DNA from: Anaerolineaceae bacterium
Lineage (GTDB): Bacteria; Chloroflexota; Anaerolineae; Anaerolineales; Anaerolineaceae
Direction: 5' to 3'
Length of the DNA stretch: 64,000 nucleotides
Assembly (NCBI GenBank): GCA_029265815.1
Contig: JAJUGU010000008.1
Span: 1 to 64,000, forward strand
Shown here: in pieces, positions 18,076-57,845 of the stretch
How the letters are laid out: every line of letters begins with the position of its first letter
Position numbering within the stretch: the stretch's first letter is position 1
Notes under the pieces: generated by a model
Databases searched by the model: none
The model's input: the letters and a program-made list of their open reading frames with translations, nothing else
What the model was told of the DNA's origin: nothing
Program-made: the position numbers and the translations under genes

Positions 18076-18290
18076 AAGGATTTTTCCAGGTAATGATCAA
18101 CAACTAAAATGCAAAAAAGATTGATATTTCAGACCCAATCTAATTCAATATTAATAATCATTGAGTATAAATGGAGAGTCAATTGTTTGAAGTGAAAAAT
18201 AATCATGAGTTGACTACAGATTCGTCTCTGGGATGATTCCCATCGAATCTTTACGAATACCTCTACATCTCATTGAAAAGGAAAGCGATT

Positions 18291-18812: not shown

Positions 18813-18849
18813 GTTTTTCAACCGCATACGAAAACCGGGCAAATCAAAA

Positions 18850-18882
18850 AAACGCGGCATCTTTAAATTTGGTGCCGCGTTT
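18850..18882. terminator. Bidirectional terminator between nitroreductase and esterase
   Basis: AAACGCGGCATC (18850-18861) pairs with GGTGCCGCGTTT (18871-18882), with one mispaired (G-U-type) position and a 9-nt loop. It lies between two convergent stop codons, with T or A runs on both sides. Confidence 0.85.
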
Positions 18883-18900
18883 GATCAGATCAGTAAATAT

Positions 18901-19872: not shown

Positions 19873-20051
19873 TTTTTATTCTCCTGATCTTTTTGAATGC
19901 AGTTTATTTTCAACAGAAAGATTTTACGTCCTCCTGTCATTTTCTTTAGTGTACAAAAAACTAGATTTTGTTTTTTTACACAATCCTTGATCGGACTGAT
20001 CTAAAAACTTTCACTTTGATTTATAGTGTGAAAATTTTAATTCGTGGTGTT

Positions 20052-43544: not shown

Positions 43545-46295
43545 CTATGATTCGGGCAGTTTCTCTGTTATTTTGTTTCCCTCTCTCAATAATTCAGATA
43601 CGTTTTGCAACAAGGTATCCATATTAAACGGCTTTTGCAGCAGAACGCATCCAGTCTGAACAAAAAATTCTTCATTTTCTTTATTGATCAAATCACCAGT
43701 GGTGAAGATAATCTTTTTGGCCAGTACAGGATCCCTTCGAGTAACCTCTTGATAGAACTGAATTCCACCCATACCCGGCATACTGATATCGCACACTATC
43801 AGGTCATAACGTTGATTTTCGAGGTAAATCAATCCATCCAGTCCATTCTCAGCTCCGTCTATGTCATAGCCATTTCTTGAAAGCAATCGTTGAAGGATCT
43901 CAAGGACATTCTGTTCATCTTCCACAATTAATAAGCGATATGGTTTTTTCAGACCATTTTGCATAGTCTGGACATCACTATCATCTTCCCTAGAAAAACT
44001 ACGTATGGGCAATTCAATGTAGAACCGCGCCCCACCCTCTTGCCCGCTTTCTGCCCAGATATGCCCGCCATGTTCAGTGATGATCCCATGGCAGACCGAT
44101 AATCCCAGACCTGTTCCATTACCGTCTGCTTTGGTTGTAAAGAATGGATCAAATATTTTAGGCAATATGGATGGGGGAATGCCTATTCCATTATCATTAA
44201 ATATGATCGTTATGAACTTCTCATAATGCGCGACCTGCCCATAGTATTTTGATACACTTGTTTGAGTAGAAATTTCCAGAATTCGTGGGCGGTCAACTCT
44301 TTCCAACGCCTGGATTGCATTATTTATAAGGTTGAGAAATACTTGCTTGATCTGGTAAGGATCCGCTGATGTATCAGGTAATTTTGAATCTGGGTGAAAA
44401 ATACATTGTATTTCATGTTTTGTGAATTCAAATTCCACCAACTCAAGTGTGCTTTTCAAGAGATCATTAATGCTCACTGTTTTTCGCTCTGGAACATGCT
44501 GACGCGAAAAATCCAGCAGACTATGGACAATCTTTGCAGCTCGCTGAGCTTCTGTTAGAATTTTTTTCAGGTCACGTCGTTCCAATTCGAACAAAGACTG
44601 CCGGTACAAGTCTTCTGACGTAAGTTGAATGGTGGTCAATGGATTGTTCAATTCGTGCGCAACACCGGCAACAAGCTCTCCGATGGCAGCAAGCTTCTCC
44701 CTTTGCACCAGAAACAGACGCGTCTTGCGTAAATCTTCCAGTTGAATATGAAGATTGTCAACCAACGATTGACGAAAAGCAGCATTTGCGACCAAATTGG
44801 CCACCGATGAAAGAAGATTGATCTGGTTTTTTGTAAATGGCGTCTGGCTCATAACACAAAACGCCCCAAGCGGTTGTTGGTGGGCAATCAATGGAAAAGC
44901 AACCAGGAAATTGCCATTCAATTTTTCCTCATAATGATCGACGCTCTCTTCTGTGGTCGAGAGTTTTTTAATCCCTTCTCCTTCGATCACTTTTTCTATA
45001 AAAGAATACCTGGAGAAGAATTCGTCTTGAGGAATTTCTTCCCAATCGATACCACACTGGAATAATTCCCTGGCTCCTTTTGCGGAATCAAGGAATACCA
45101 ATGCCACATCGTCTACTTCACAAAGTTCGATCACTTTTTTCATAATCATTGCCGGTATCTCTGGCAAAGATTGGGCATTACGCATGGCATTGGAGAATTT
45201 TGATATAGTATTCAGTTTTTCAATATATCGTCTTCTGCTTTCAAGCAGCTGTACCTTTGCTAATACCAGGGTAATCTGTTCCACTGCCCGCTTGCACCGG
45301 AATATTTCCTGTTCGGTTAAATCTCGCGGTTGCCGATAGGCAATGAATGCTGATCCAAGCATATCTTTTTGCGATTTCATGGGAATTACCAGAATGGTGG
45401 AAACCGGAATGGATTGGATCACTTTGAAATCGCGGAATTCACTTCGTGGAGCATCCTTGATAATTAAATAGTCGCCACATTTTTGAGAAAGTTCTGTAAG
45501 TGTCGTATCGCCAAATTCCAGGTGCAGAGAAGAGACTTCTTCTTGTGAGGCACCATACACGCCAGCAGGATAAACAAGCTGTTTCTCGTCATCCCATAAA
45601 CCAAAACCACTAACATCCGATTGGGCTAATTCGCTCAAATTCTGTGAGAATTTGTAGAGCGTGTCCAGATAATCATCAGAGTCCAATGCGGTCTGAATAA
45701 AATTGGTTAACGATGAATAATAGTGACCCTTTATTTCCCGTTCGTTTTCAACCGTCGATCTATCTAATGCAGCCCGGTAAACACTGCCCAGAATTTTTAT
45801 CTGTCCACGTTGTTCATCTGAGAAAGATTTTTCTGTCTTAACTGACCATAAACACAACAATCCCTCAATTATTTGATTTCTTCCAATCAACGCTTCAGAC
45901 AGCGTTACCCCTCCACTCTTCAAATCAAGAAAAATTTGAGGGTCAAGATCAAAATCTCCCAGCTCCACAAGCCTGGAAACAGTGATATTTTGCGCATCGG
46001 GCATTTTTTTCTCGATCCAGGAAAGCAACCTGCCCGGGTTTTGGCATTTTTCTATATGCAAAGTACTGGATCGGGAATCATAGATTTGCATATGGACGCC
46101 ATTTCCCTTGTCGAACTTCATCAATAAAACAGCATCTACTTCAAAAACAGTGCATATAGTTTCTAATGAGCTTTGGACATGCGAATTGATCTCATCCGCG
46201 GACCCATAAGAGATTGCATCCAATAATCCGTTCAGAAGGTTGAAGAAATTTACTTCGTGGCCTTGAACTTTTCCTTGAGAATTCATTATAAACAC
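43545..46295 (-). CDS. Hybrid sensor histidine kinase: GAF domains, HisKA, HATPase, receiver
   Basis: This 916-residue soluble signalling protein has three GAF-like sensor domains (about 20-185, 200-350 and 360-515) and a short coiled coil. The dimerisation domain follows with phosphate-accepting His547 in GVAHELNNPL. The ATP-binding domain keeps its N-box LINNAIQAL, G1 box DNGIGIP, F-box DPFFTTK and G2 box GTGLGLS, and a C-terminal receiver has the acceptor Asp in VCDISMPGMGG. All key residues are present, so it should be active. There is no membrane segment, so it senses a cytoplasmic signal. It is the last gene of the Roadblock/GTPase locus; its attached receiver may hand phosphate to the response regulators encoded upstream. 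Confidence 0.93.
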   Translation of the reverse strand: MFIMNSQGKVQGHEVNFFNLLNGLLDAISYGSADEINSHVQSSLETICTVFEVDAVLLMKFDKGNGVHMQIYDSRSSTLHIEKCQNPGRLLSWIEKKMPDAQNITVSRLVELGDFDLDPQIFLDLKSGGVTLSEALIGRNQIIEGLLCLWSVKTEKSFSDEQRGQIKILGSVYRAALDRSTVENEREIKGHYYSSLTNFIQTALDSDDYLDTLYKFSQNLSELAQSDVSGFGLWDDEKQLVYPAGVYGASQEEVSSLHLEFGDTTLTELSQKCGDYLIIKDAPRSEFRDFKVIQSIPVSTILVIPMKSQKDMLGSAFIAYRQPRDLTEQEIFRCKRAVEQITLVLAKVQLLESRRRYIEKLNTISKFSNAMRNAQSLPEIPAMIMKKVIELCEVDDVALVFLDSAKGARELFQCGIDWEEIPQDEFFSRYSFIEKVIEGEGIKKLSTTEESVDHYEEKLNGNFLVAFPLIAHQQPLGAFCVMSQTPFTKNQINLLSSVANLVANAAFRQSLVDNLHIQLEDLRKTRLFLVQREKLAAIGELVAGVAHELNNPLTTIQLTSEDLYRQSLFELERRDLKKILTEAQRAAKIVHSLLDFSRQHVPERKTVSINDLLKSTLELVEFEFTKHEIQCIFHPDSKLPDTSADPYQIKQVFLNLINNAIQALERVDRPRILEISTQTSVSKYYGQVAHYEKFITIIFNDNGIGIPPSILPKIFDPFFTTKADGNGTGLGLSVCHGIITEHGGHIWAESGQEGGARFYIELPIRSFSREDDSDVQTMQNGLKKPYRLLIVEDEQNVLEILQRLLSRNGYDIDGAENGLDGLIYLENQRYDLIVCDISMPGMGGIQFYQEVTRRDPVLAKKIIFTTGDLINKENEEFFVQTGCVLLQKPFNMDTLLQNVSELLREGNKITEKLPES

Positions 46296-46443
46296 CGTAC
46301 TTAAATATTTGATTCAATCGCCAGTTTTTTTAATTTTACGAGAAAACAGTAGAAAAAATGCGACTTTACAAAACCAATAACTGTTTTTCTATATCCGTAT
46401 CTCTACCAGATTGCCGTTATTCTTTCATCTTCAAAATGACGGA

Positions 46444-47154
46444 TCACCCTTTCTTCTCTATCCGTTTGAGCTCATTGATCATCTCATCATGAATATCGAT
46501 CATTTGTGTCGAATCGTCATATTTTGTAAAAGACACACTGGTTGTATTCAATAATATTTGCAGCACCATCTTGATGCAAGAAAGGTTTATCTGGCTGTGT
46601 TCGACAATTTCAACCAGAGAAGTAATTCCCTTCCCTTGCTGGATGTATTCAGCGAGTAATGTAAGGTTCCCATCAAGGGCGGTCAGGTAATTGTTGATGT
46701 AATGAGAAAGGGTGATCATCGTGATTTGGACTGCTTCTACCCTAAGCAGTCGATGATCAGATTCTTCTCTTTGATTTCTTGCATTTCCATCATCGATCAT
46801 TCTCTTGATGGTTTCTCTCGCAATGTCAAATCTGGCAGGCAAGGCGATAAAATCGCTCATTCCCCGCCTAAATGCTGCCAGAAGATCATCTTTAGATGCG
46901 GTTGTTGTCAGCAAGACAACAGGTGAGTTATTTGCAGACTGTGCCAAAACAGATAAGAATTTTAATTCTGGCATTCCAGCCAGGGATTCTCCTAATAAAA
47001 TCAGGTCGGGGCTGTTCAACAGGGCTATTTCAAGCCCTTGTTTCTGATTATTTGCGGATAAGATCTTATACCCAAGAGGTGTAAGGACTTTTTCCTCAAA
47101 GAATCTGCAGATATCTTCATCGGTGTCGATGATAAGCACAACACCATCATTCAT
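46444..47154 (-). CDS. Pseudo-receiver joined to an orphan histidine-kinase H-box domain
   Basis: This 236-residue protein has an N-terminal receiver fold in which two key residues are lost. The phosphorylated Asp is Gly55 in LILLGESLAGMP, and the conserved Lys-Pro is Leu105-Pro106; the acidic pair near residues 10-12 remains. The C-terminal half reads MITLSHYINNYLTALDGNL, matching the H-box of histidine kinases (usually SHEINNPLTAL) with His151. No ATP-binding domain follows. It therefore cannot be a normal response regulator; it may act as a phosphotransfer helper or as a docking platform. It sits between the amidoligase and the hybrid kinase genes on the same strand. The domain match is by eye. 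Confidence 0.75.
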   Translation of the reverse strand: MNDGVVLIIDTDEDICRFFEEKVLTPLGYKILSANNQKQGLEIALLNSPDLILLGESLAGMPELKFLSVLAQSANNSPVVLLTTTASKDDLLAAFRRGMSDFIALPARFDIARETIKRMIDDGNARNQREESDHRLLRVEAVQITMITLSHYINNYLTALDGNLTLLAEYIQQGKGITSLVEIVEHSQINLSCIKMVLQILLNTTSVSFTKYDDSTQMIDIHDEMINELKRIEKKG

Positions 47155-47259
47155 TCAGCCCCCCTATTCCTTCGCTTATAAGAATATTTTTTATGAAGCG
47201 GCAATGAAACCTATCCTTTTGGGATTTATGTAATCCCCGATCAAATTATCTTGGATTGT

Positions 47260-48552
47260 TTAACTATCAAAAACGTAGGTTCCCTGATGTTCGCTCCAGT
47301 GCAATCCACGTAAATTTTTTACTTTTTCAATCCGTCTATCCAATTCCTGCGGAGTGAGAAATAACTCAGTAGCAGCCCGCCACTTCCATTCTTCAACAGA
47401 TATCAGACGGCTCCATTCTCCCAATTCGATGCGCTGCATCAACCTGCGGTCAATTTCATCCACTCCGAAATCATCAGGAGTTGCACGACTTGCTAGCAAA
47501 TGTTCAATATCCGTCCAATCATACCCGGCGCAACGCAGAAGCGAGATGGGAGTCTCTGCCAACAGTTCGAGCACCTCAAGTACTTCATTCGCATCAATTC
47601 GCTCAAATGTTGGTGTCATTAAGTCAAGCATCTCATGCGAACCCTGCCTTAGTTCAGCGATCACATCGTCAGTTACTGCACGAGTATCGCTGGTTGCAAG
47701 CTCACCGTCGTTATTATTTAACATACCCAGCAATTCCACTTTTCGCCGCCAGGTATTTACTTTGCCAACATGAATGACACCATACTGGCTTAGATCGATC
47801 GATTTAAGAGTAAGAGCCAAAAACAAAAATGTCTTAGCTGTAATTGAAGTGGCAGATAAATCGCAATCAGCGAACCGAAATTCAAGGTGAAAGGGTTGAA
47901 CTCCACCGTTTTCATTAAAACCCAGATGTTGCAAATTTAAAAAGTTTTGATGTTCAGGAACAATCGAACTGCGGTGGAGTTCCTGTTGAATTTGTGCCAT
48001 GGTCATGTGGATGGGTGAATGGCGCACCATTTCGATATGGCTGGTATAGTTGCGCCGCCGGCATAATGCCGAACGAGTCGCTCCTCCGCTAGTAATGAAT
48101 CGCAGTTCTGGTGAGTAGCGACGTACCAGGTTCCACAAATTCGCCAGAATGATTTCTGGCACCGGTTCTGCAAGAGATGGCGTGAGCAGATGAAAATGCA
48201 GTCCGCATGTGGAGCGAGCCCGTGCGCCTAATTCCAGGAGTCTGGACATAATTCCCTGGTATTGCTCCTGTATCGATCGGAAATATGGCTGGCGCCCGTT
48301 CACCCTGATTTCGATTCCGCAATGTTCTGGTTTGATGTCAACGACACCATAAAGACCCAGATTTTCGTACGTTCCAGAAGGAACAAGAGCTTTGATTGCC
48401 AGGTCTTCAAACTCTTTTCTCTCCAGCTTTTTTGGAGGAGCAACCTCGATCTCTGTACCAATCTTAATGACCCGGTACAGTAAATCCTTCCAATAATTTA
48501 CTTGAGAGAATGTAAGTGTGTCATCTCGCCTGAGAACAATTGGATCCTTCAT
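47260..48552 (-). CDS. Amidoligase-family (COOH-NH2 ligase) enzyme
   Basis: About 430 residues. The core matches the amidoligase family (PF12224), relatives of glutamate-cysteine ligase and glutamine synthetase that join a carboxylate to an amine using ATP. VIKIGTEIEVAPP (near residue 30) gives the metal-binding Glu pair, STCGLHFHLLTP (about 116-127) gives the conserved histidines, and PFHLEFRFADCDLSA (about 222-236) gives the arginine strand. About 170 residues of helical sequence follow. The start is ATG 48552, 6 nt after AAGG; ATG 48558 lacks spacing. A hairpin lies between it and the preceding Roadblock operon, so its expression may be partly separate. The substrate, possibly a protein or peptide, is unknown. 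Confidence 0.75.
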   Translation of the reverse strand: MKDPIVLRRDDTLTFSQVNYWKDLLYRVIKIGTEIEVAPPKKLERKEFEDLAIKALVPSGTYENLGLYGVVDIKPEHCGIEIRVNGRQPYFRSIQEQYQGIMSRLLELGARARSTCGLHFHLLTPSLAEPVPEIILANLWNLVRRYSPELRFITSGGATRSALCRRRNYTSHIEMVRHSPIHMTMAQIQQELHRSSIVPEHQNFLNLQHLGFNENGGVQPFHLEFRFADCDLSATSITAKTFLFLALTLKSIDLSQYGVIHVGKVNTWRRKVELLGMLNNNDGELATSDTRAVTDDVIAELRQGSHEMLDLMTPTFERIDANEVLEVLELLAETPISLLRCAGYDWTDIEHLLASRATPDDFGVDEIDRRLMQRIELGEWSRLISVEEWKWRAATELFLTPQELDRRIEKVKNLRGLHWSEHQGTYVFDS

Positions 48553-48575
48553 ATTCATCCTTGGAGAGTACAGAA

Positions 48576-48602
48576 ATAGGTACCCTGTAAACGGGTACCT
48601 AT
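48576..48602 (-). terminator. Hairpin before the amidoligase gene
   Basis: ATAGGTACCC (48576-48585) pairs perfectly with GGGTACCTAT (48593-48602) across 7 nt; on the minus strand it is followed by TTTCTG. It stands 21 bp after the stop at 48624 and just before the amidoligase ribosome site, so it could act as attenuator between the two parts of the locus. Confidence 0.6.
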
Positions 48603-48623
48603 CTTATTTAGGCAATATCCTTG

Positions 48624-49100
48624 CTAAAGCGAACTGAAGATAATCTTGCAGCCATTGCCTTCAGGCCAACGTTCGATAGCAACACGCCCCTTTTCTCCGC
48701 TTCTTCTCATCAGCGCACTATACACAAGCATGATCGGGCAGGTAAAGTTGTATCTTGCACCAGCGGCAATAATCTTGTCGGTATTTTGAACGTTAATACA
48801 ACCCTTAACAAGGACAATCGCCTGTTTCTTTTCGTAATTTACTTCAAAGGTTATCTCTTTGCCAAAACCAAGCTCGTCACAGAAAATTCGGTCAACTTCC
48901 CTGGCTACATCCTCAGGATTCTCACCAGCAATTTCAAGACCCTGATCTTTTTCGAACATTTCAAGGAGTGCATCGCCCATACCTCTGCTGAGGGCAATGG
49001 ATGTCTCACCCAATGTATCCCACACCTCTGCTGCTAATACCTGCATCAGTATACCGGCCATTCGCAGCGTATTTTGTTTCTTTGCTTCTTCAGTAGCCAT
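48624..49100 (-). CDS. Protein of unknown function, possible small-molecule sensor
   Basis: I do not recognise this 158-residue protein with certainty. It opens with a helix (residues 10-45) and continues with alternating strands and helices, including FGKEITFEVNYEKKQAIVLV. Cysteines lie at spaced positions in RIFCDEL, KGCINVQ, FTCPIML and NGCKIIF. The pattern faintly recalls V4R-type ligand or heme-binding domains, which also end in a Gly-Cys strand, but this is weak. AGGAG precedes the ATG. It follows the Roadblock proteins closely (34-bp gap), so it probably acts in the same pathway. Confidence 0.55.
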   Translation of the reverse strand: MATEEAKKQNTLRMAGILMQVLAAEVWDTLGETSIALSRGMGDALLEMFEKDQGLEIAGENPEDVAREVDRIFCDELGFGKEITFEVNYEKKQAIVLVKGCINVQNTDKIIAAGARYNFTCPIMLVYSALMRRSGEKGRVAIERWPEGNGCKIIFSSL

Positions 49101-49134
49101 ATTTTGTCTCCTATATAAAAATATTAACGATCAA

Positions 49135-49509
49135 TTACCGGGGAATTACATCCCAAATTCGAGGGGAATATTCTTCAATGAGCATACGCGCTGTACCAGG
49201 GGTGGCTTTTTTGGTTAACACAGCAATTAACGCATAAGAGCCATCGCCCAGGAAATTGGTCATCACGTAGACCTGGTTAGTCGTCATCAGACTTTCTTCA
49301 AACGTACCAAGTTTTAGTTTTTCAGCAACACGTTTGCCTGCCTGCAAAGCCATTACAGCTCTACCAGCTTGCTGATCGGCTGAATCAGCATCATTAAGGG
49401 TCGATTCTCTTGCAATAGATACGCCGTCAAGACCACAAATTGACAAGATCAGTACATCGCCGCCAATCTCTCCACGGAGTTCTTTGAGAATATCATTTAG
49501 TTTTGACAT
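49135..49509 (-). CDS. Roadblock/LC7-domain protein
   Basis: This 124-residue single-domain protein has the fold of MglB and dynein light chain LC7: an N-terminal helix MSKLNDILKELRGEIGG, a strand LILSICGLDGVSIARES, a long middle helix and two further strands with QVYVMTNFLGDGSYALIAV. The form IxGxDGxxIA is the best family mark. Such proteins form dimers that act as GTPase-activating proteins or scaffolds for Ras-like GTPases. The likely partner is the MglA-type GTPase encoded 1.2 kb upstream on the same transcript. AAGGAG lies 6 nt before the ATG. Confidence 0.88.
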   Translation of the reverse strand: MSKLNDILKELRGEIGGDVLILSICGLDGVSIARESTLNDADSADQQAGRAVMALQAGKRVAEKLKLGTFEESLMTTNQVYVMTNFLGDGSYALIAVLTKKATPGTARMLIEEYSPRIWDVIPR

Positions 49510-49537
49510 TTTGCTCTCCTTAAACTATTGATCTCAT

Positions 49538-50275
49538 CTATCGGGGCATCGCTTTAGCAATACGTTCGGCGTAGACTTTACTGATTAAGCGCATGTTTCC
49601 AAGTGTTCCAGATTTTCGATCAACAATGACAGATAAATAGTGCGTTTGATCTCCTGGCAAGAAAACAGCCATCAGGAAAGCATCCTCAGTTTGCAGTACC
49701 AAATCTTCCATTGTTCCTAACGATATTTTTTCGTTATTTGCTCCGACCAGTTTCATCAAAACTGACATTTGAGCAGCAACCTGCTCTGGATTTACTTTTC
49801 CTTTTGTCTTCTGTGCGATGGTGAGGCCATCCATCCCTGCGACAGCGCAAGCCATAAAACCATTCAACTCAGCGCTCACCTCTTCTAACAATTCGTCGAT
49901 TCTTAGTGCCATAAATGGTACCTCCCGGTTTTTTTTATTGTCTGTAGTATCAAAATCAGGATTTAGGTTTCCTTCATCAAGCCGCCGCGCACCTTCTATT
50001 AATAACCCAGACCAGCTTCGATTAATTGAGACTTTGGGCGATTCGGCTTCGTTTGCAAGGGTAAACGATCCTTCATCCCAGGCTAGTATTCGATAAACAA
50101 CCTCCTCTCCCTCTAAATCATTAAGGGAAGCGTGAACGACTTCTCCATTGCGAAAAAATAATTCGGCTTCTCCCTGAGAACTGGTAATTGTGATTTTTGC
50201 TTTCTTTCGATCCAAACAATTATGCTGAATCAAATCAGCAACCGACATATCGTGAATATTTCCCTGTAGACTCAT
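49538..50275 (-). CDS. DUF4388-Roadblock/LC7 fusion protein
   Basis: This 245-residue protein starts with a DUF4388 (PATAN) domain: GNIHDMSVADLIQHNCLDRKKAKITI and FFRNGEVVHASLNDLEGEEVVYRIL (about 5-65), a module common in signalling proteins with receivers and GTPases. From about residue 120 a Roadblock domain follows, with LLEEVSAELNGFMACAVAG and MDGLTIAQK, and a long helix. Its C-terminal strands contain DAFLMAVFLPGDQTHYLSV. It may link the GTPase module to the two-component proteins. It starts 3 nt after the preceding Roadblock gene stop, so they are translationally coupled. Confidence 0.87.
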   Translation of the reverse strand: MSLQGNIHDMSVADLIQHNCLDRKKAKITITSSQGEAELFFRNGEVVHASLNDLEGEEVVYRILAWDEGSFTLANEAESPKVSINRSWSGLLIEGARRLDEGNLNPDFDTTDNKKNREVPFMALRIDELLEEVSAELNGFMACAVAGMDGLTIAQKTKGKVNPEQVAAQMSVLMKLVGANNEKISLGTMEDLVLQTEDAFLMAVFLPGDQTHYLSVIVDRKSGTLGNMRLISKVYAERIAKAMPR

Positions 50276-50278
50276 GGT

Positions 50279-50680
50279 TTATTTCCAGTAATTCGACCAA
50301 ATAGTGATAATTTTTTTAATCGCGGCAGAAGTGACACGACGATAACTGGTGGCACGATCTGGAATCATCACCGAAAGGATGAGGTCAAAATTGTTTGCTT
50401 TGAAAGACCGGCAGATGAGGTGTTTTCCATCCATATCCACCAGAGAAATTTCTTCAGATCCAGCAAATCCCAATTGTTTTGCTACTTGAACAGCGGTCTT
50501 TTGTATGAAAGCCACAACCGCAGATTGCCTATCAGCATTCATGCCATCATCTGCAGCTGACGCAATTGCTAACCCTTGCGCATCTGTGATCACCGAAATT
50601 GGAAAACCGCCTTCTCGGTTCATTTCTTCAAGCAGTTGGATGAGTTCGTTCGAGCCGTTTTTGGAATATTGTTTTTCCAT
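50279..50680 (-). CDS. Roadblock/LC7-domain protein
   Basis: This 133-residue protein is another single Roadblock domain: helix NELIQLLEEMNREGG, strand FPISVITDAQGLAIASAA, a helix of about 25 residues starting at DRQSAVVAFIQKTAVQVAKQ, and strands around GKHLICRSFKANNFDLILSVMI. It lies just after the GTPase gene (15-bp gap) in the position where mglB stands relative to mglA in many bacteria, and so is the first candidate for a GTPase-activating dimer. AAAGGG precedes the ATG. Confidence 0.85.
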   Translation of the reverse strand: MEKQYSKNGSNELIQLLEEMNREGGFPISVITDAQGLAIASAADDGMNADRQSAVVAFIQKTAVQVAKQLGFAGSEEISLVDMDGKHLICRSFKANNFDLILSVMIPDRATSYRRVTSAAIKKIITIWSNYWK

Positions 50681-50695
50681 ATTTTCCCTTTCGTT

Positions 50696-51286
50696 TTATC
50701 TGGCCATAACTCGTTGTACGCGGGCTACAACGTTGCGTGTAATGGCTTTAAGCGTATCAAACACACCTTCTCCTTGCGTAGCTATTGCTGGATAGATCGG
50801 AAGATTGTGAATATGAAGTGTTGCCCTGATCACTGACTCAGAAAGTGCATCGGGGAGATCCTGCTTATTCACCTGAACGACAATAGGGATCCAGGTCATG
50901 GGGGTTTCAAATGATGAGAGGTGGGTATGCATGCTTTCCCAGGATTCCCGGTTGGCATTGATCCGGTCAGGTTGTGAATCTGCCACAAAAACAACGCCGT
51001 CCGCACCGCGTAAAACAAGTCTGCGGGTTGCTTCGTAGTAAACCTGTCCAGGGACTGTATACAATAAAATCTTCGGGGTCAGGTTGCCAATTTTACCCAA
51101 TTCCAATTGCAGGTAATCGAAGTAAAGCGTGCGATCTTCGTGAGTCTTGAGAGATACCAATTCACTCCGATGGTCAGCATCTACCCTGGCGTAGATCTGT
51201 TCAAGGTTCGTCGTCTTGCCACTAAGTGCCGGACCATAATAGACAATCTTTAATTGCAATTCGCGTTGCTTCCAATTAATATGCAT
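50696..51286 (-). CDS. MglA-type small Ras-like GTPase
   Basis: This 196-residue GTPase has all nucleotide-binding motifs: G1 GPALSGKTT (18-26), the switch I region with EDRTLYFDYLQLELG, G3 TVPGQ (77-81) where most Ras proteins have DxxGQ, and G4 NKQD (140-143). The TVPGQ form is normal in the MglA group, which controls cell polarity and motility in Myxococcus and polarity-like events elsewhere. Five Roadblock proteins are encoded around it, one or more of which probably regulate it. It has 6 bp and 15 bp gaps to its neighbours. Function in this organism is unknown. Confidence 0.93.
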   Translation of the reverse strand: MHINWKQRELQLKIVYYGPALSGKTTNLEQIYARVDADHRSELVSLKTHEDRTLYFDYLQLELGKIGNLTPKILLYTVPGQVYYEATRRLVLRGADGVVFVADSQPDRINANRESWESMHTHLSSFETPMTWIPIVVQVNKQDLPDALSESVIRATLHIHNLPIYPAIATQGEGVFDTLKAITRNVVARVQRVMAR

Positions 51287-51292
51287 CGTTAC

Positions 51293-51823
51293 CTACCCAT
51301 TCCAGATACTGTTAAGGGAATCCCCGTAAAGCTCAGCGAGTTTTTCATCATCAAGGCCAATATCGAGGTTCTCTATATCGTTCTCGGGAGTATTGATAAT
51401 CTCGGCAATCTGTTTTGCTGATTCCTTAACCAACAACCGCGCCCAACCCAGGGGCGTCCGGGTCGGAACCAGACAGAGCAACACCAGTTCCTTGCCGATC
51501 TCAGAGATGAATAAATTTGATTCAAGTCCTTCGCGAATGATCAATTGGTAGGATTCATATTGACCGATGATCCGGGCTGTCTCCTGGCTTGCCGCCAGAT
51601 CCCCCGCCACAACAGATCCGAGCGCCAGTAATTTGTTTTTTTCCAGTTCTCCCCTTTGAAGAATAGGTTGACCAGCTGTATCAGCGATCATGATATACAA
51701 CGACTGGATCTTCTTTTCCAGTTCCCTGGTCAGTTCTCCCAGAGCATTTTCTTGACCTGCGAAAATAGTAAAACCACCACGAAGCATTCTCTGCTTTACA
51801 TTGTCAAAACTAAAATCAGTCAT
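51293..51823 (-). CDS. Roadblock/LC7-like protein with C-terminal acidic tail
   Basis: This protein of about 176 residues has a less clear Roadblock domain: SLYIMIADTAGQPILQRGEL is the first strand pair, followed by the helix LLALGSVVAGDLAASQETARIIG and strands including NLFISEIGKELVLLCLV. The last 40 residues are acidic (NTPENDIENLDIGLDDEKL) and may bind another protein. The start at ATG 51823 has AAAGG 6 nt upstream and begins one base after the preceding stop; an upstream in-frame GTG reading from 51844 would overlap that gene. It sits directly before the GTPase gene and probably binds its product. Confidence 0.8.
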   Translation of the reverse strand: MTDFSFDNVKQRMLRGGFTIFAGQENALGELTRELEKKIQSLYIMIADTAGQPILQRGELEKNKLLALGSVVAGDLAASQETARIIGQYESYQLIIREGLESNLFISEIGKELVLLCLVPTRTPLGWARLLVKESAKQIAEIINTPENDIENLDIGLDDEKLAELYGDSLNSIWNG

Positions 51824-51824
51824 T

Positions 51825-52871
51825 CTAAGCCTTTCGAGTACCACTGGTTTTTTCTTTGTAAGATCCAGTCTGGCTGTTAGGCAGGATCAATCCGACGGCC
51901 AGAGCTTCTTCATATGACATCGTAAATTGTGAGGAGTCTGAAATATTCTTTTGGTTCGAAGTTGTCGAACTTTGATCAGAAAAAGCAATATCTAAATCAT
52001 CAGAAAAGATCTTGTCGAGTTCTGTTTGAATTGCCTGATTGAACCCGGGATCAGCAATCCATTTTTGTTCAATTTTTCTGGCTTCATGAAATCTTTCACC
52101 AAGATACGCTGCGGTTTTCATGATGATCTCAGCCACTTGCCAGTTTTTCTTGTCACTTACCGCATGTTGTGTCATTACAATCAAGATCCGCCTTCGATCA
52201 ACTCTGCTGGCGAAGAGATCTTGATTTTTTCCCTGACGAATCAACTGGCTTGAAATACAAGCCTCATCATCCAAAATATCGCCTGTTTTTTCAAGAATCT
52301 TGAGAGCGGTATTAACGGATGTCACCAGTTTCTCTTTTTTTGATCGGTCAATATCACCCAATGTGATGTATATCCCTTCGAATGTATCGATTAAGAGGAC
52401 ACAGGTGGCATCAATGGTCTTTCTTAGTGATTGAAGGATCTTTATGATTTGAGAATTGACATTATCGTTATGGATTACGACCCCTGGCCGGCTGATGTCA
52501 AGATCACCAAAAGCCTGCTTTACGACCGATCGAAAAGTGCTCAGGTCAATTGGTTTGTTTAAATATGCAAAGGCCTTTAAACGACTGACCTCAGCCTCAA
52601 CTTCGTCGCTGCCAAAGGCTGTAATGAAAATGACCCGCATATTTGGCTGCAGACTATGGGTCATTTCAAGCAATTCCAAACCATTCATACCGCTCATGCG
52701 ATAATCGGTAATAATCAGGTCAACACGGAATTTTTCCAGATATCGAAGCGCTTCCCTTCCCTCTCGCGCTGTTAATATCCGGTATTCCTGTCCCAAGCCC
52801 ATCAAACTGTTCTTGAGCACAGTAAGAACTGCCTCTTCATCATCGACTATTAATATTGTTTTTACATCCAT
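51825..52871 (-). CDS. Receiver-Roadblock fusion protein
   Basis: This 348-residue protein has a complete N-terminal receiver with acceptor Asp56 in LIITDYRMSGMNG and the conserved Thr/Lys in FITAFGS and YLNKPID. A middle part (about 140-260) seems a Roadblock-like domain: TCVLLIDTFEGIYITLGDID, a helix and RRRILIVMTQH. The C-terminal 80 residues are charged and low-complexity. It could carry phosphorylation state to the GTPase system, as no DNA-binding part exists. A terminator separates it from the regulator gene upstream, so it may have its own promoter in 52872-52940. Confidence 0.82.
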   Translation of the reverse strand: MDVKTILIVDDEEAVLTVLKNSLMGLGQEYRILTAREGREALRYLEKFRVDLIITDYRMSGMNGLELLEMTHSLQPNMRVIFITAFGSDEVEAEVSRLKAFAYLNKPIDLSTFRSVVKQAFGDLDISRPGVVIHNDNVNSQIIKILQSLRKTIDATCVLLIDTFEGIYITLGDIDRSKKEKLVTSVNTALKILEKTGDILDDEACISSQLIRQGKNQDLFASRVDRRRILIVMTQHAVSDKKNWQVAEIIMKTAAYLGERFHEARKIEQKWIADPGFNQAIQTELDKIFSDDLDIAFSDQSSTTSNQKNISDSSQFTMSYEEALAVGLILPNSQTGSYKEKTSGTRKA

Positions 52872-52940
52872 GATTTTCGCTAACTTATTTTAGCAAGGGA
52901 AAAGTTAGTTAAAAGTTAGGCTATGTTGGGACAGGTTGAA

Positions 52941-52976
52941 AAATAGCGTGTGCTTAATCTTCTGCACACGCTATTT
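52941..52976 (-). terminator. Intrinsic terminator after the DNA-binding regulator gene
   Basis: AAATAGCGTGTGC (52941-52953) pairs perfectly with GCACACGCTATTT (52964-52976) over a 10-nt loop. On the minus strand the stem runs into TTTTTC, so it ends the kinase-regulator transcript and splits it from the GTPase genes. Confidence 0.85.
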
Positions 52977-52994
52977 GGTCGCTAAGTATTCAGC

Positions 52995-53783
52995 CTATCC
53001 ACACCACATGTATCCTTCAAAGCGAATCGTTTTGATGTAAACCGGCTTCATTGGATCTGGTTCAACCTTTTGCCGCAGGTTATGTATGTGATATTTGATA
53101 ATTTCACCTGCTTCGCTCGCAGTCGCAGCATACCCCAATACGCGCTGAACAAGAATCCCTGGAGAGACTGGATTTGGTGCTGATTCTACGAGACAAACCA
53201 ATAGCTTGTATTCAGTGCTGGTAAGATTTAAATCATGCCCATTCATGAGAACCTTCCGATGATCCATATCAATTTTGAGCGCCCCGCTTTTAATCACATT
53301 CACTGGTATTGAAGCAGATACCTGAGAACGTTCAATCGGATCAAGTATTTGTAAAGTTTGATGTAATGACGATAATTGAATATGAAGTTTCTTCTGAACC
53401 ATGGCTTGTTCGTATTTTTTAATCCCTTCATTCACTCGTTCACGAATGGCTTCAGGTTCAACGGGTTTTACCAGATAATCAAAAGCACCCAGACGCAGGG
53501 CATCAATGGCGCTATCCACCGTGCTGAATGCAGTCAGGATGATCACAACCGTTTCTTGATTGATCTGCCTGAGAGATTTAAGCACGCTCAATCCAGACAC
53601 TGGCTGCATATTTAAATCAAGAAGAATCACATGGTAGGAATGCTGGCGGATCTTTTCGATCGCATCCAAACCATTTGACGCCGTATCCACCAAATATCGA
53701 TCTTCAGTCAATGTATGGGTTAATACATAAAGGATACTTGGTTCGTCATCCACAATCAGAACATTCGGCAGGTTGTTTGCCAT
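52995..53783 (-). CDS. OmpR-type response regulator with divergent winged helix
   Basis: This 262-residue protein has a receiver domain with Asp56 in ILLDLNMQPVSG, Thr in IILTAFS and Lys106 in YLVKPVEP, and is complete for phosphorylation. From about residue 165 a winged-helix DNA-binding domain follows: LNLTSTEYKLLVCLVES, the recognition segment SEAGEIIKYHIHNLRQKVE and the final strand PVYIKTIRFEGYMW, as in PhoB/OmpR. Between them lies a helical linker. Its gene is 15 bp after the degenerate kinase gene. With that kinase probably unable to bind ATP, the phosphate may come from the hybrid kinase at the end of the locus. Confidence 0.92.
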   Translation of the reverse strand: MANNLPNVLIVDDEPSILYVLTHTLTEDRYLVDTASNGLDAIEKIRQHSYHVILLDLNMQPVSGLSVLKSLRQINQETVVIILTAFSTVDSAIDALRLGAFDYLVKPVEPEAIRERVNEGIKKYEQAMVQKKLHIQLSSLHQTLQILDPIERSQVSASIPVNVIKSGALKIDMDHRKVLMNGHDLNLTSTEYKLLVCLVESAPNPVSPGILVQRVLGYAATASEAGEIIKYHIHNLRQKVEPDPMKPVYIKTIRFEGYMWCG

Positions 53784-53798
53784 TCACTACCCATCCAT

Positions 53799-54563
53799 TC
53801 ATAAATTTTCCGCCGCTCTGGAAAATGCGATGAAGAGGTGAGATTGTTCGATAGTCGTATTGAGAACAATCTTGCCACCTTGTGGTGTAATGAATGCTTC
53901 GGCAAGAGAGATATCGATTTTATTTTGAGATGTTGAGGGCTGCTTGTCATTTTGACGATAAATTTGCACAACCGTATCAAAAGAAAAATCTAGAAGAGTT
54001 TCAGGCTTTGATTCAAGGATTGATAGCGTATATTCCCTTTGTCCAAGTTTTTGAAGTGTCTCGTTGATATTTAACCAAAGATCAAGGAGCGCTAATTGAA
54101 TCTCATTTTCACAGACCTTGATTACACATGGAGTATGAGGTCTAATAAATTCTAATTTTAACCCTTTTCGATTTAAATCATCTTTTATGATCTTTAAGGA
54201 TTGGTCAATCATCGTTTCGAGATTAACCAAAATTGGCTCAGAAGGTTTTTCAGAATAAAGATTTCGAAGAAAGGTGGTTAATGAAAGGATGCGGTCTGAT
54301 TCACTTAAAATAATATGAAGGTAGTTGGTGACAGGTTCAGGGAGATTCTCTTCTTCCAGTGCAAGCATCACCCCTCCTTTTATAGCCTGCATCGGATTAT
54401 TGATCTCATGCACAATGTTGGGTAAGAGCCCACCAATAATGGATAATTTTTGCCCCTGAAAATCTCTAATTGATCTTTCTCTTGCTTTTGAATCCTGTTG
54501 TGTCATGCGTGAACCCACAAAACGCGCAATAAAATACCTTAATATTGAAAGGTAAACTTCCAT
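53799..54563 (-). CDS. Histidine kinase-like protein with degenerate ATP-binding domain
   Basis: This 254-residue cytoplasmic protein has a HisKA dimerisation domain with His52 in NIVHEINNPMQA. The next part follows the outline of HATPase_c, with an N-box-like LALLDLWLNINETLQ, but where the G1 (DxGxG), F and G2 boxes should stand it has QIYRQNDKQPSTSQNKIDI and then ends GGKIVLNT. Autophosphorylation therefore seems unlikely; phosphatase or phosphotransfer roles are possible. No sensor domain is present. A good promoter lies 50 bp upstream on this strand. It is the first gene of the locus. Confidence 0.8.
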   Translation of the reverse strand: MEVYLSILRYFIARFVGSRMTQQDSKARERSIRDFQGQKLSIIGGLLPNIVHEINNPMQAIKGGVMLALEEENLPEPVTNYLHIILSESDRILSLTTFLRNLYSEKPSEPILVNLETMIDQSLKIIKDDLNRKGLKLEFIRPHTPCVIKVCENEIQLALLDLWLNINETLQKLGQREYTLSILESKPETLLDFSFDTVVQIYRQNDKQPSTSQNKIDISLAEAFITPQGGKIVLNTTIEQSHLFIAFSRAAENL

Positions 54564-54640: not shown

Positions 54641-54900
54641 TAATGGATAATCACACCCTTTTGGCATGACAGGTCATTCCTTAAGGATGACGGTTTTTTT
54701 CATTCTCCATTTCTTCAGGACATTCTTTTACCTATCAATGAATCAGTTATACCACCAGGGTTATCTCTTCAGGTTGGAGAACAACCTGTGATCCGTTTCT
54801 CAGACTGTCTTTGTATTTTCAAGGAACCAGGCAGTAATATATAATGAAATATCTACTTTGGGAAACAGGTTTTCTTGATAGTCAACAACAAAAAAATTGT

Positions 54901-54922
54901 TATAATGGTTGCATATCGCAAC
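54901..54922 (+). promoter_or_regulatory. MarR-type operator following a -10 box
   Basis: TATAAT (54901-54906) is followed by GTTGCATATCGCAAC (54908-54922), an inverted repeat with 5-bp arms GTTGC and GCAAC. The possible -35, TTGATA at 54875-54880, is 20 bp away, wider than ideal. The site lies 14 bp before the MarR ATG. The same palindrome recurs at 61029-61043. Confidence 0.65.
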
Positions 54923-54936
54923 TGTTAGGCGGGCTT

Positions 54937-55386
54937 ATGGATCAATACCAGCGCTCACAGATCGATCAACTTCTCTTTCAGGTATTGCGCACCATTTTTC
55001 ATTACGAGCGCAGTATTGAAAAGAGTTATGGTTTAGACTTTGGTCAGATTTACATCCTTCAATTCTTGCGCCGGCATCCAGACGCGCGTCTTACAGAAAT
55101 TGCACTAGAAATGGATCTGCCCAAATTTGCCATCAGCCGCATGCTTAACCAGCTGGTTGAAGAAGGGTTGATTGCAAAAAAACAAGACACTGTCGATCAT
55201 AGAAATTACCACATTCGCCTTCAAGAAAAAGGGGAACAGATCCTCAAGGCTATTGAAGAAGTCAGTTACAATCGCATCTCGACCAACATCCAGGGCCTTC
55301 CACCTTCTGCGATTAACGAGCTGGTAGATGTGGCAGAGCAGCTTCACATGGTATTGGGTGTCAGTGAAAAAATCAAAAATCAATGA
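54937..55386 (+). CDS. MarR-family transcriptional regulator
   Basis: From ATG 54937 this is a 149-residue winged-helix dimer with the helix-turn-helix LTEIALEMDLPKFAISRMLNQLVEEGLI (about 54-81) and the wing DTVDHRNYHIRLQEKGEQIL, whose Asp/Arg-containing turn is typical of MarR proteins. The upstream in-frame ATG at 54844 would place the promoter and operator in the coding region. MarR regulators usually repress and release DNA when bound to aromatic or oxidising compounds; the ligand here is unknown. The operator before its own gene implies autoregulation, and it is followed after 24 bp by the aldehyde oxidoreductase gene. Confidence 0.9.
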   Translation: MDQYQRSQIDQLLFQVLRTIFHYERSIEKSYGLDFGQIYILQFLRRHPDARLTEIALEMDLPKFAISRMLNQLVEEGLIAKKQDTVDHRNYHIRLQEKGEQILKAIEEVSYNRISTNIQGLPPSAINELVDVAEQLHMVLGVSEKIKNQ

Positions 55387-55410
55387 TGGTCAGCATCATC
55401 GGAGTAACCA

Positions 55411-57396
55411 ATGAAGTCATACACAGGAAAAGTATTGTGGGTTGATTTGACGCGTAAGTCTTTCTCAGAAGAACTCATTCCAGATTCAATTTATCAGAAG
55501 TATCTGGCAGGCATCGGCTTAGGAGCTGCCCTGTTATATCGGGAAATCCCACCCCATGCCGACCCTCTCGGACCGAATAATGTTTTAGGGTTTGTCTCTG
55601 GTCTTCTCACGGGAACCGGCAGCCTGTTCTCAGGCCGCTGGATGGCAGTGGGTAAATCTCCTTTAACAGGAACCTGGGGAGACTCGAATTGCGGTGGTAC
55701 GCTTTCTTACGCAATCAAACAATGCGGCTACGACGGCATATTTTTCAAAGGAAGCAGTTCCACACCTGTTTATTTGTTAATCAATAGCCAGGGCCCAAGC
55801 CTGCATGACGCTTCGCATCTGTGGGGAAAAGATGCTGTTGAAACCGAAGATATCCTTCGAGCTGAATACAGTGGTAAAAACATGCCTTCCATTGCAGCCA
55901 TCGGACAGGCAGGTGAAAAATGTTCCCTGATTTCTGGAATCGTCAACAACCGCGGCCGCCTGGCTGCCCGTTCAGGGCTTGGTGCGGTAATGGGATCCAA
56001 GAAACTTAAAGCGGTCGTGCTGGCTGGTTCAAAAAGGGTGAACGCACACAATCCGGTTCAAATGAAAATCTTATCCTGGCGCTGCACGCGAGATATCGAT
56101 GTGCCGATGAAGCCGATTTCCTCCAAGATCTTTGCCATTTTCGGCTGGATTTTGGGAAAACTTCCAGTCGGGTTTAAGATGCCAGGTTTTTTAATGGGAG
56201 GTGTTTTATCAAAATGGGGAACGATTGGAACATTTCCGGCATCAGTAGGAATGGGCGATACACCATTTAAAAACTGGATGGGAACAAATAAAGACATGCC
56301 TGATATCAACAATCAGGTAGATCCAGACAGAATCATTGCCACTCAGAAGCGTAAATACCACTGCCGGGGTTGCCCGGTTGGCTGCGGTGGCATTGTTGAA
56401 ATGCCTGATAAAAGACGGGAAAGTCACAAGATTGAGTATGAAACAGCCGCTTCGTTCACAAGCATGTTATTGAACAATGACATTGACCTTGTGTATGAAG
56501 TTAATGAAATGCTCAATCGCGCCGGAATGGATACGATTTCTGTAGGCGCAACGGTGGCATTTGCCATGGAATGTTACGAAAAGGGATGGATCACCAGGGA
56601 AGATACCGGCGGCATTGAACTGACCTGGGGAAACGCGATGGCTATCCGTACTGTGGTTGAACAGATGATTGCCCGTGAAGGTTTCGGTGCGCTGCTCGCA
56701 GATGGCGTTAAAAAGGCCGCCGAAAAACTTGGTCCCCACACTCAAGATTCAGCCATCCATGCCGGCGGGCAAGAAATGGCCTATCACGATCCAAGACTCG
56801 ACCCAGGGATGGGTCTACATGCCAGCGTAGATCCTACCCCCGGCCGTCATACCACCGGTGCTCAACTCTATTACGACATGTTCAAACTTTGGACACGCGT
56901 TCCCGGTCTTCCTCAATCCACACAATTCTATTCAAAGGAAACTCGTTACCTGCCCGGAAATGGTAGAACTACCGGAGCTGTGGCTGTTTCAAACTTTACC
57001 CAGTTTTACAATTCCATTGGAGCCTGCTACATGGGGATGTTGATCGGTGTCGACCGTGTGCCTGTGTTTGAGTGGGCTAACGCAGCTACCGGTTGGAACC
57101 TGACTCCTGCAGAGTACCTGCGAACCGGGCAGCGAATTCAAACCCTGCGACAAATGTTTAATATTCGCGAGGGAATCGATCCGCGAAAAATTAAGGTCAG
57201 TAAACGTCTCACCGGTGACCCACCCCTTGAGGACGGCCCCAACCGCGGTGTGAAGTTCGATATTGATGCTCTGATTAAAGCATATTGGCAGGAAATCGGT
57301 TGGGATCCCGAAACGGGTATTCCAACACAAGAAACCCTGGATGCCCTTGAAATGTCTGATGTTCTTGAGCAAAAACCGCAAGGAGTCACCCAATGA
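55411..57396 (+). CDS. Tungsten-type aldehyde:ferredoxin oxidoreductase family protein
   Basis: This 661-residue enzyme belongs to the AOR family, which oxidises aldehydes to acids (or, in reverse, reduces acids) with a tungsto-bispterin and passes electrons to ferredoxin. The N-terminal pterin-binding domain begins YTGKVLWVDLTRKSF and includes GRWMAVGKSPLTGTWGDSN. The [4Fe-4S] cluster ligands are Cys318, Cys321, Cys325 in HCRGCPVGCGG and Cys539 in GACYMG. The length is slightly above the usual 600-630, through an insertion near residues 225-270. The ferredoxin gene overlaps its stop by 4 nt, so both are made together. It lies under the MarR-type promoter. Confidence 0.93.
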   Translation: MKSYTGKVLWVDLTRKSFSEELIPDSIYQKYLAGIGLGAALLYREIPPHADPLGPNNVLGFVSGLLTGTGSLFSGRWMAVGKSPLTGTWGDSNCGGTLSYAIKQCGYDGIFFKGSSSTPVYLLINSQGPSLHDASHLWGKDAVETEDILRAEYSGKNMPSIAAIGQAGEKCSLISGIVNNRGRLAARSGLGAVMGSKKLKAVVLAGSKRVNAHNPVQMKILSWRCTRDIDVPMKPISSKIFAIFGWILGKLPVGFKMPGFLMGGVLSKWGTIGTFPASVGMGDTPFKNWMGTNKDMPDINNQVDPDRIIATQKRKYHCRGCPVGCGGIVEMPDKRRESHKIEYETAASFTSMLLNNDIDLVYEVNEMLNRAGMDTISVGATVAFAMECYEKGWITREDTGGIELTWGNAMAIRTVVEQMIAREGFGALLADGVKKAAEKLGPHTQDSAIHAGGQEMAYHDPRLDPGMGLHASVDPTPGRHTTGAQLYYDMFKLWTRVPGLPQSTQFYSKETRYLPGNGRTTGAVAVSNFTQFYNSIGACYMGMLIGVDRVPVFEWANAATGWNLTPAEYLRTGQRIQTLRQMFNIREGIDPRKIKVSKRLTGDPPLEDGPNRGVKFDIDALIKAYWQEIGWDPETGIPTQETLDALEMSDVLEQKPQGVTQ

Positions 57397-57818
57397 GCCA
57401 TACCATCCTCGATACTTGCAAAGGGTGCACAGCATGCGCAAAAGTTTGCCCGGTGAACGCCATTCACGGAGAACGAAACCTGGTTCACAGCATTGATGCT
57501 GACATTTGCATCGATTGCGGAGCATGTGCCAGAACCTGTGTGTATCAAGCTGTCCTCGATGCAGATGGAAAAATACAGCCGCCCCTTAAGCGCACCTTAT
57601 GGTTAAAGCCTTCATTTTCTGAAAAGAAATGTGTCTCATGCGGGTTGTGTATCCAGAGTTGTCCTACTGGAGCAATTGGATTTTCTGAAATAATCGATCA
57701 TCAGATGGACGCGGTCGCTCGTTTGGAGAATCCAAAAAACTGCATCGGCTGTTCATTCTGTAAGGCAATTTGTCCGGTGGAAGCGATCACAATGAAAACT
57801 CCTCTTTCAAGTTCATAA
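57393..57818 (+). CDS. Ferredoxin with four [4Fe-4S] motifs
   Basis: This 141-residue polyferredoxin has four CxxCxxCxxxC motifs: CKGCTACAKVC (11-21), CIDCGACARTC, CVSCGLCIQSC and CIGCSFCKAIC. In three of them the fourth cysteine is followed by Pro. Two pairs of clusters could thus form an electron wire. It is translationally coupled with the aldehyde oxidoreductase and is most likely its electron acceptor or an integral electron-transfer subunit, as in formate- or tungsten-enzyme complexes. Where the electrons go next is unknown; no hydrogenase or quinone reductase genes lie in the unit. Confidence 0.93.
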   Translation: MSHTILDTCKGCTACAKVCPVNAIHGERNLVHSIDADICIDCGACARTCVYQAVLDADGKIQPPLKRTLWLKPSFSEKKCVSCGLCIQSCPTGAIGFSEIIDHQMDAVARLENPKNCIGCSFCKAICPVEAITMKTPLSSS

Positions 57819-57845
57819 CACAATTCATAATTTCTGGAGGCCAGC

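Follow-up and report, generated by a model that had tools for sequence, protein, structure and literature searches.

Among described bacterial systems, those closest to the locus reported here are the MglA/MglB/MglC-RomR module of Myxococcus and Thermus and the conservons (cvn) of Streptomyces. The locus consists of twelve co-oriented genes at positions 43545-54563, minus strand, of a 64,000-nucleotide stretch of DNA from an Anaerolineaceae bacterium (contig JAJUGU010000008.1, positions 1 to 64,000; assembly GCA_029265815.1), hereafter the window. Like the Mgl module, it contains an MglA-family GTPase with MglB-like and MglC-like Roadblock proteins, and like RomR, in the available excerpts of a survey of Ras-like GTPases (PMC4316618), it has a response-regulator input. 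Unlike that module, it has five Roadblock domains, a receiver-MglB fusion, a DNA-binding regulator, an amidoligase and a V4R-like protein, and no motility gene was recognised among its twelve. Conservons, according to the same excerpts (PMC4316618), likewise join kinase-like, Roadblock, GTPase and unknown-function proteins in one operon. By contrast, the GTPase of our locus best matches MglA of Thermus and Myxococcus, which belongs to Group 1 of that survey, and the locus has more Roadblock proteins and an enzyme pair, namely the amidoligase and, in relatives, a class-II glutamine amidotransferase (GATase). Group 1 MglA neighbourhoods were described there as varied, with some near genes for PATAN domains.

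The enzyme pair resembles gene sets of phages. In LUZ24-like phages, genes for an Amidoligase_2 protein and a class-II GATase lie near each other (PMC3890496), and both genes appear in the gene list of Pa11virus (PMC6209634); in the accessible portions of these papers, the phage sets differ from our locus in adding an ATP-grasp and a PF14395 ligase and in their lack of GTPase, Roadblock, kinase and V4R-like genes. The ligase and the phage amidoligases are alike only in fold, and none of 245 pattern matches in viral contigs was confirmed as a relative. The carboxylate-amine ligase fold is also that of PafA/Dop and glutamine synthetase; unlike in PafA/Dop pupylation, no Pup-like gene was recognised at the window locus, and the ligase belongs to a separate family. 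Ras-like GTPase, Roadblock and Bet3/V4R folds, the last of these predicted at our locus, are likewise found in Asgard archaea and in eukaryotic TRAPP and Ragulator, again a likeness of fold only. As far as its accessible sections go, the Asgard paper treats Roadblock proteins, TRAPPC3/V4R and small GTPases together and indicates that such genes generally do not share an operon in MK-D1, whereas those of our locus do (PMC10933270). Full-text searches, with most subscription literature outside their scope, found no publication joining amidoligase with Roadblock and none bringing class II glutamine amidotransferase, amidoligase and signaling together; for V4R, Roadblock and GTPase, only the Asgard paper concerned such proteins, as judged by title. 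Within these searches, the parts are of known kinds and their combination was not found.

Open reading frames (ORFs) and Pfam/NCBIfam profile searches confirmed the twelve same-strand genes, which an initial annotation had read from the window alone. The annotation had suggested that they may form one undescribed signalling system, and this was partly supported. Alignment A1 of the amidoligase, scanned against one genome per species, yielded 50 further loci, whereas a scan of genome contigs with the single protein confirmed no relative. The loci (L numbers; G numbers denote genomes) carry ten phylum labels: Chloroflexota, Cyanobacteriota, Acidobacteriota, Thermodesulfobacteriota, Chlorobiota, Calditrichota, Caldifarciminota, Coatesbacteria, Myxococcota, and Pseudomonadota. 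Single labels are possibly wrong, because most loci come from metagenome bins. Genes were counted over 51 loci including the window, excluding contig-cut loci; required flanks of the ligase were at least 600 bp upstream for the V4R-like gene, at least 1500 bp upstream for Roadblock genes, at least 4000 bp upstream for the GTPase, and at least 300 bp downstream for the GATase. Of 48 testable loci, 45 had the V4R-like gene upstream of the ligase (L045, L059, and L093 lacked it), Roadblock genes were present in 43 of 45, and a stand-alone class-II GATase gene was paired with the ligase in 41 of 46. V4R-like, ligase and GATase genes were on the same strand wherever they co-occurred. The common core is the Roadblock genes, the V4R-like gene, the amidoligase, and the class-II GATase, and not the GTPase.

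Gene order was retained in several loci. By best blast match, L046 had all twelve window genes in the same order, and L047, L055, L058, and L069 had eleven. In L030/L071, most parts were present, rearranged yet together, and components also stayed together despite rearrangement in L060, L065, and L066. Kinase and regulator labels across loci denote best blast matches and do not imply orthology. The gene counts above rest on iterated in-house profiles, which matched no reversed ORF and none of the 177 window ORFs outside 41-58 kb. In the 2.58-Mb own genome, a Robl_LC7 search gave four matches, three at the locus and one elsewhere. The twelve-gene set is not a chance assembly, because its order recurs in other lineages and three of these four matches lie here. 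The system is rare. Within the class, the amidoligase occurred in 11 of 249 genomes: the window's own and ten at 52-68% identity, one of which, G158, has just a short piece of the gene where a contig ends. With the window genome counted, it was found in 3 of 101 genomes of the family and 2 of 301 of the phylum sample. The amidoligases of L061 and L078, from bins labelled Deltaproteobacteria, grouped with that of Chloroflexota L059 (branch value 99), by either recent transfer or mislabelling of the bins.

The amidoligase call of the initial annotation stood as to fold and not as to Pfam family. The protein scored 14.4 bits against Amidoligase_2 (PF12224), whose cut-off is 22 bits, and only 4 of 30 members matched that model at E ≤ 0.1 (best E, 0.037); because it scores under the cut-off, we file it under the carboxylate-amine-ligase superfamily rather than PF12224. 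Its AF2 model (pLDDT 89.2) adopts the carboxylate-amine-ligase fold (glutamate-cysteine-ligase/PafA/glutamine-synthetase). VIA Z scores were 18.6 for plant glutamate-cysteine ligase, 18.5 for 1tt4, and 17.6 for 1r8g (YbdK), followed in lower rows by Dop (16.1), PafA (15.4), and glutamine synthetases (~12). The motifs GxExE, EHCGxE, TCGxHxH, and ExR were invariant in 30 homologues, with E36/E38, E78/H79/E83, H121/H123, and E226/R228 as the invariant residues, which presumably correspond to the catalytic residues of GshA. Family members were 41-72% identical to the window copy, and their sequences indicate a family of its own within the superfamily.

The second enzyme comes to light only through the relatives and is invisible in the window. 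In 26 aligned GATases, the M1-C2-G3 start, HNG, and an Arg were invariant; we take Cys2, Arg, and His-Asn-Gly to be catalytic, as in GlmS. GATase_6 was above the Pfam cut-off in all three relatives scanned, the closest solved structures by profile were GlmS (9.6e-19) and PurF, and no synthase domain was attached. The gene was missing from the window, L045, L048, L069, and L088, the last four searched at the locus only, and the only profile match in the window's own genome lay in a 621-aa frame, GlmS-like in length. L048 is from strain Longilinea arvoryzae KOME-1, a carrier that, like the window, has no GATase beside the ligase. GATase was present in deep branches of the tree, which requires three GATase changes; one of them falls in the clade that the window forms with L048 and L069. 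The tree was a quick one, with 17 of 48 inner branches open. We read the three changes as losses, including one in the window's lineage, and this loss is why the initial annotation did not see the gene. That annotation had suggested a peptide-forming enzyme as the output or a modifier; ammonia-dependent amidation is the more probable activity, at any rate in the ancestral state. Lacking GATase, the ligase of the window's lineage would therefore have to use free ammonia or another amine.

The V4R-like protein was compared with 31 aligned relatives 26-57% identical to the window copy (alignment A2). Met1, Ala2, and Lys7 were invariant, GLE and ExxR...DExG motifs were found, and two Cys residues were near-invariant. 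The start Met-Ala-Thr-Glu/Asp occurred in 46 of 49 copies; the remaining three each differed by one residue, one of them merely a GTG start read as V. Such a near-constant N-terminus, with Lys7, across phyla is unusual for a soluble protein. The AF2 model (pLDDT 91.8) gave VIA Z scores of 10.5 for BcsD, ~9 for Bet3-type subunits of TRAPP, and ~8 for H-NOX and the V4R domains of phenol sensors (DmpR/MopR); Z values near 8 may reflect only a common arrangement, and identity in the structural matches was 7-15%. Foldseek gave no match to the model at E of 0.001 or below (best, 1.1e-3), and V4R or TRAPP families were not among the Pfam matches of 32 members. A Bet3/V4R/H-NOX-like fold is favoured because the top VIA rows are folds compared with one another in the accessible text of the Asgard paper (PMC10933270). 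Strong matches to the V4R-like protein occurred in 10 class genomes, 9 of which also have the amidoligase. Another 15 class genomes gave weaker matches (E 1e-5 to 1e-12), which the counts exclude; the two such loci inspected had CoA-transferase-like and ABC-transporter gene neighbours, named by eye.

The space between the V4R-like gene and the amidoligase is variously occupied. In the window, the 65-bp gap contains a ten-pair inverted repeat (48576-48602), possibly an attenuator or processing site. Protoglobin genes lie there in L073 (7097-7690) and L074 (9392-9946), a hint that some lineages take a gas or redox input; by blast, relatives of the L073 protoglobin occupy the same slot in L051, L058, and L072, the L051 copy without a Pfam match of its own. 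L081 has a hexapeptide-repeat protein there, and a beta-carbonic anhydrase gene stands beside the amidoligase in L046, L075, L082, and L094 (by Pfam) and L077 (by eye), under four phylum labels. A 140-aa acidic protein in the gap of L071 was considered as a Pup-like tag and rejected, since other loci have unrelated genes or none there; genes in this slot elsewhere encode carbonic anhydrase, protoglobin, or a small Cys-rich protein.

Linkage of the GTPase to the enzymes depended on lineage. All 18 Chloroflexota loci whose upstream flank reaches 4 kb or more, the window included, have an MglA-type GTPase within 4.5 kb (hand-counted; a looser rule, at least 4000 bp or GTPase present, gives 20/20 in Chloroflexota and 3/17 elsewhere). 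The GTPase clade (E < 1e-30, hand count) was found in 35 of the 249 genomes of the class sample but in 8 of the 11 that have the amidoligase (hypergeometric 9e-6, uncorrected for kinship). The three amidoligase genomes without it were G085 (4.6-kb contig), G241 (contig starting inside the ligase), and the fragment-bearing G158. Among 31 near relatives, 10 had the clade, and 3 of these (window, G255, G264) had the amidoligase. Because all 18 loci have the GTPase but 27 of the 35 GTPase genomes have no ligase, the Chloroflexota amidoligase comes with the GTPase and not the reverse. In Leptolyngbya (L052:6706-8684), a distant Ras-like GTPase (GPVGAGKST; phmmer 1.3e-5 to one member of the MglA-like set) follows a Roadblock gene; the next gene, of 290 aa, is DUF4388-like by eye without a profile match, and V4R-like, amidoligase, and GATase genes come after it. 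L071 has a second GTPase/Roadblock/DUF4388 set (17250-21222, minus strand) on the opposite strand, 6-10 kb past the amidoligase.

The most economical proposal, drawn from sequence and in our view evenly balanced, is that these genes work together as a signal-controlled module for ATP-dependent amidation. The hybrid kinase and response regulators would pass a signal, presumably by phosphorylation, to the receiver-MglB fusion; this fusion, depending on its phosphorylation, would serve the MglA-type GTPase as GTPase-activating protein or guanine nucleotide exchange factor, and the DNA-binding regulator would supply a transcriptional arm. GTPase state in Chloroflexota, or the Roadblock scaffold alone in other phyla, would gate the enzyme pair: the GATase would free ammonia from glutamine, and the ligase would activate a carboxylate with ATP and then amidate it. 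The target would probably be a Glu/Asp side chain or the terminus of a partner protein, possibly of the Roadblock or V4R-like set, with the V4R/Bet3-fold protein as a putative ligand-sensing or substrate-presenting partner. The operon may represent a bacterial G-protein circuit controlling a chemical modification. Small-GTPase/Roadblock signalling would thereby be tied to an amide-forming enzyme pair in a gene set conserved across many phyla, a defined and testable module for the roles of bacterial Roadblock/Bet3-fold proteins and for protein amidation as a signal. There is a fair chance that this variant of MglA/Roadblock signalling merits a category of its own. Rather doubtful is the fuller proposal of a new signalling class, in which a two-component signal acting via Roadblock proteins (plus the GTPase in Chloroflexota) would switch glutamine-fed amidation of protein carboxylates, with an operon partner as target (for example the V4R/Bet3-fold protein with its Met-Ala-Thr-Glu/Asp start) and the amidation state as output or memory; if true, a single bacterial operon encoding Ras-like GTPase, Roadblock, and Bet3-fold proteins would parallel TRAPP in function.

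Several observations weigh against the single signal-controlled module. The GTPase is dispensable to the enzyme core, being present in only 3 of 17 loci outside Chloroflexota, and is missing even from Chloroflexota L068, where 3.4 kb upstream and 9.2 kb downstream were available. The 27 class genomes with the GTPase clade and no amidoligase, drafts of 64-99% completeness, showed none even by profile re-search. The enzymes are missing from L039 and L044, both of which have GTPase/Roadblock genes, and G181 keeps kinases, regulators, Roadblock, GTPase, and V4R-like genes with no amidoligase in the genome and no GATase within the 16 kb inspected. Cyanobacterial L045 and L049 show no Roadblock gene. 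Within the window, intergenic gaps of 123 bp before the receiver fusion and of 105 and 148 bp before the last two genes leave room for separate transcripts. Finally, GATase loss in the window's lineage weakens the description 'glutamine-fed' for the window copy, and the stand-alone GATase could alternatively be a gamma-glutamyl amidohydrolase.

This last point leads to gamma-glutamyl chemistry, a possible though tentative alternative in which the ligase would join glutamate to an amine, in the manner of glutamate-cysteine ligase, and a GATase-like Ntn hydrolase would remove glutamate, implying a writer/eraser pair or signal-controlled synthesis of a small thiol or peptide. Ligase plus Ntn-hydrolase chemistry has a precedent in ergothioneine synthesis, with its EgtA/EgtC pair. 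In favour of this alternative, glutamate-cysteine ligase and YbdK lead the structural matches of the ligase (Z 17.6-18.6), the GATase is a separate protein with no synthase domain attached, and three lineages retain the ligase without GATase. However, the closest solved relatives of the GATase by profile, GlmS and PurF, are true ammonia donors, and no thiol-pathway gene was found among the recurrent clustered operon neighbours, with 69 single neighbours outside that identification. It is unlikely that the locus instead comprises two independent modules, an MglA/Roadblock module for polarity or surface behaviour and a metabolic amidoligase/V4R/GATase module, which share regulation by position only: relatives do have GTPase/Roadblock genes without the enzymes, and the enzyme core lacks MglA in 14 of 17 loci outside Chloroflexota, but Roadblock genes accompany the core nearly throughout, the gene sets stay together though rearranged, and a distant GTPase occupies the same place in Leptolyngbya. 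Highly improbable is CO2/bicarbonate or gas chemistry, in which GATase ammonia would be joined to bicarbonate or a carbamate-type product, or a gas sensed, since the beta-carbonic anhydrase, which together with the protoglobins of L073 and L074 and the H-NOX-like fold of the V4R-like protein speaks for it, is present in just 5 of 51 loci and not in the window, and the ligase's solved relatives among the VIA matches are presumably mostly enzymes of glutamyl carboxylates.

Domain assignments for the twelve genes are given in Table 1. Pfam or profile searches recovered the degenerate kinase, DNA-binding regulator, receiver fusion, DUF4388-Roadblock fusion, and GAF hybrid kinase of the initial annotation; four of its five Roadblock-type proteins and its GTPase matched solved MglB, Roadblock, MglC, and MglA structures, and the fifth, the DUF4388 fusion, matched Robl_LC7.

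Table 1. Genes of the Roadblock/GTPase/amidoligase locus in the window and the matches assigning them
Gene product	Position	Strand	Evidence
Degenerate histidine kinase	53799..54563	-	HisKA with H-box, Pfam 1.2e-9, sole match above cut-off
OmpR-type DNA-binding response regulator	52995..53783	-	Response_reg 6.7e-30; Trans_reg_C 7.1e-16
Receiver fused to MglB-like Roadblock domain	51825..52871	-	Response_reg 8.4e-25; C-terminal profile A3 vs MglB 2.1e-23
MglB-like Roadblock protein, 183 aa	51293..51844	-	Profile A4 vs MglB 2.7e-34
MglA-family small GTPase	50696..51286	-	Profile A7 vs MglA structures ~1e-79
Roadblock protein, 133 aa	50279..50680	-	Robl_LC7 3.4e-4 (sub-cut-off); profile A5 5.1e-5
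DUF4388-Roadblock fusion	49538..50275	-	DUF4388 2.8e-22, Robl_LC7 5e-6, both above cut-off
Roadblock protein (MglC/LC7-like), 124 aa	49135..49509	-	Profile A6: Roadblock 4.9e-8, MglC 2.1e-6, CvnB5 2.2e-6
V4R-like protein, 158 aa, predicted Bet3/V4R/H-NOX-like fold	48624..49100	-	Alignment A2, AF2, Foldseek, VIA
Carboxylate-amine ligase (amidoligase)	47260..48558	-	Alignments A1, A8; AF2; VIA
Pseudo-receiver with H-box (HYINN) region	46444..47154	-	Response_reg 3e-12
GAF hybrid histidine kinase with receiver	43545..46295	-	GAF, HisKA, HATPase_c, Response_reg above cut-off

Five Roadblock domains were found by profile, two of them MglB-like and one of these receiver-fused. Pfam scored the three single-domain Roadblock proteins below its cut-off and missed the Roadblock domain of the receiver fusion altogether, which was seen only via its family profile; for the sub-cut-off proteins, family profiles of aligned relatives matched solved Roadblock structures. 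Both the 183-aa protein and the receiver fusion, the latter by its C-terminus, matched MglB over almost the full length and matched each other at 99.6% in hhalign; the NCBIfam MglB score of the 183-aa protein (1.2e-9) was below that model's cut-off. The 133-aa protein is the weakest of the five calls (hhalign vs A6, 96.9%). The DUF4388 domain of the fusion is presumably the PATAN domain. In the GTPase, the G1, G3, and G4 motifs are intact (GPALSGKTTN, TVPGQ, NKQD), and the P-loop GxxxxGK[ST], TVPGQ, and NKxD were invariant across 20 homologues, placing it in the MglA family. Pfam and NCBIfam likewise assigned it to the GTPase superfamily. The GTPase query found only the locus copy in its own genome.

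Among the two-component parts, no HATPase domain was found in the degenerate kinase by Pfam. Blast found relatives of this kinase in 6 of the other 50 loci and, by best match, relatives of the pseudo-receiver in an equal number. Read by eye, the pseudo-receiver has ...LILLGES in the window and ...LIMLDMN in a relative, L027, so that loss of the phospho-Asp is not general. A motif scan counted 26 promoter-like motifs versus 27.4 expected and 15 terminator-like motifs versus 10.3 expected (standard deviation, 3.7).

An anti-phage defence role was considered and rejected: PADLOC models gave only two weak partial matches among the 9 proteins scanned, and none of a full system. Genes for a MarR-type regulator, an aldehyde ferredoxin oxidoreductase, a ferredoxin containing four stretches of Fer4, and a protein of 554 aa form a divergent cluster (54844-59510, plus strand) that starts 280 bp from the operon.

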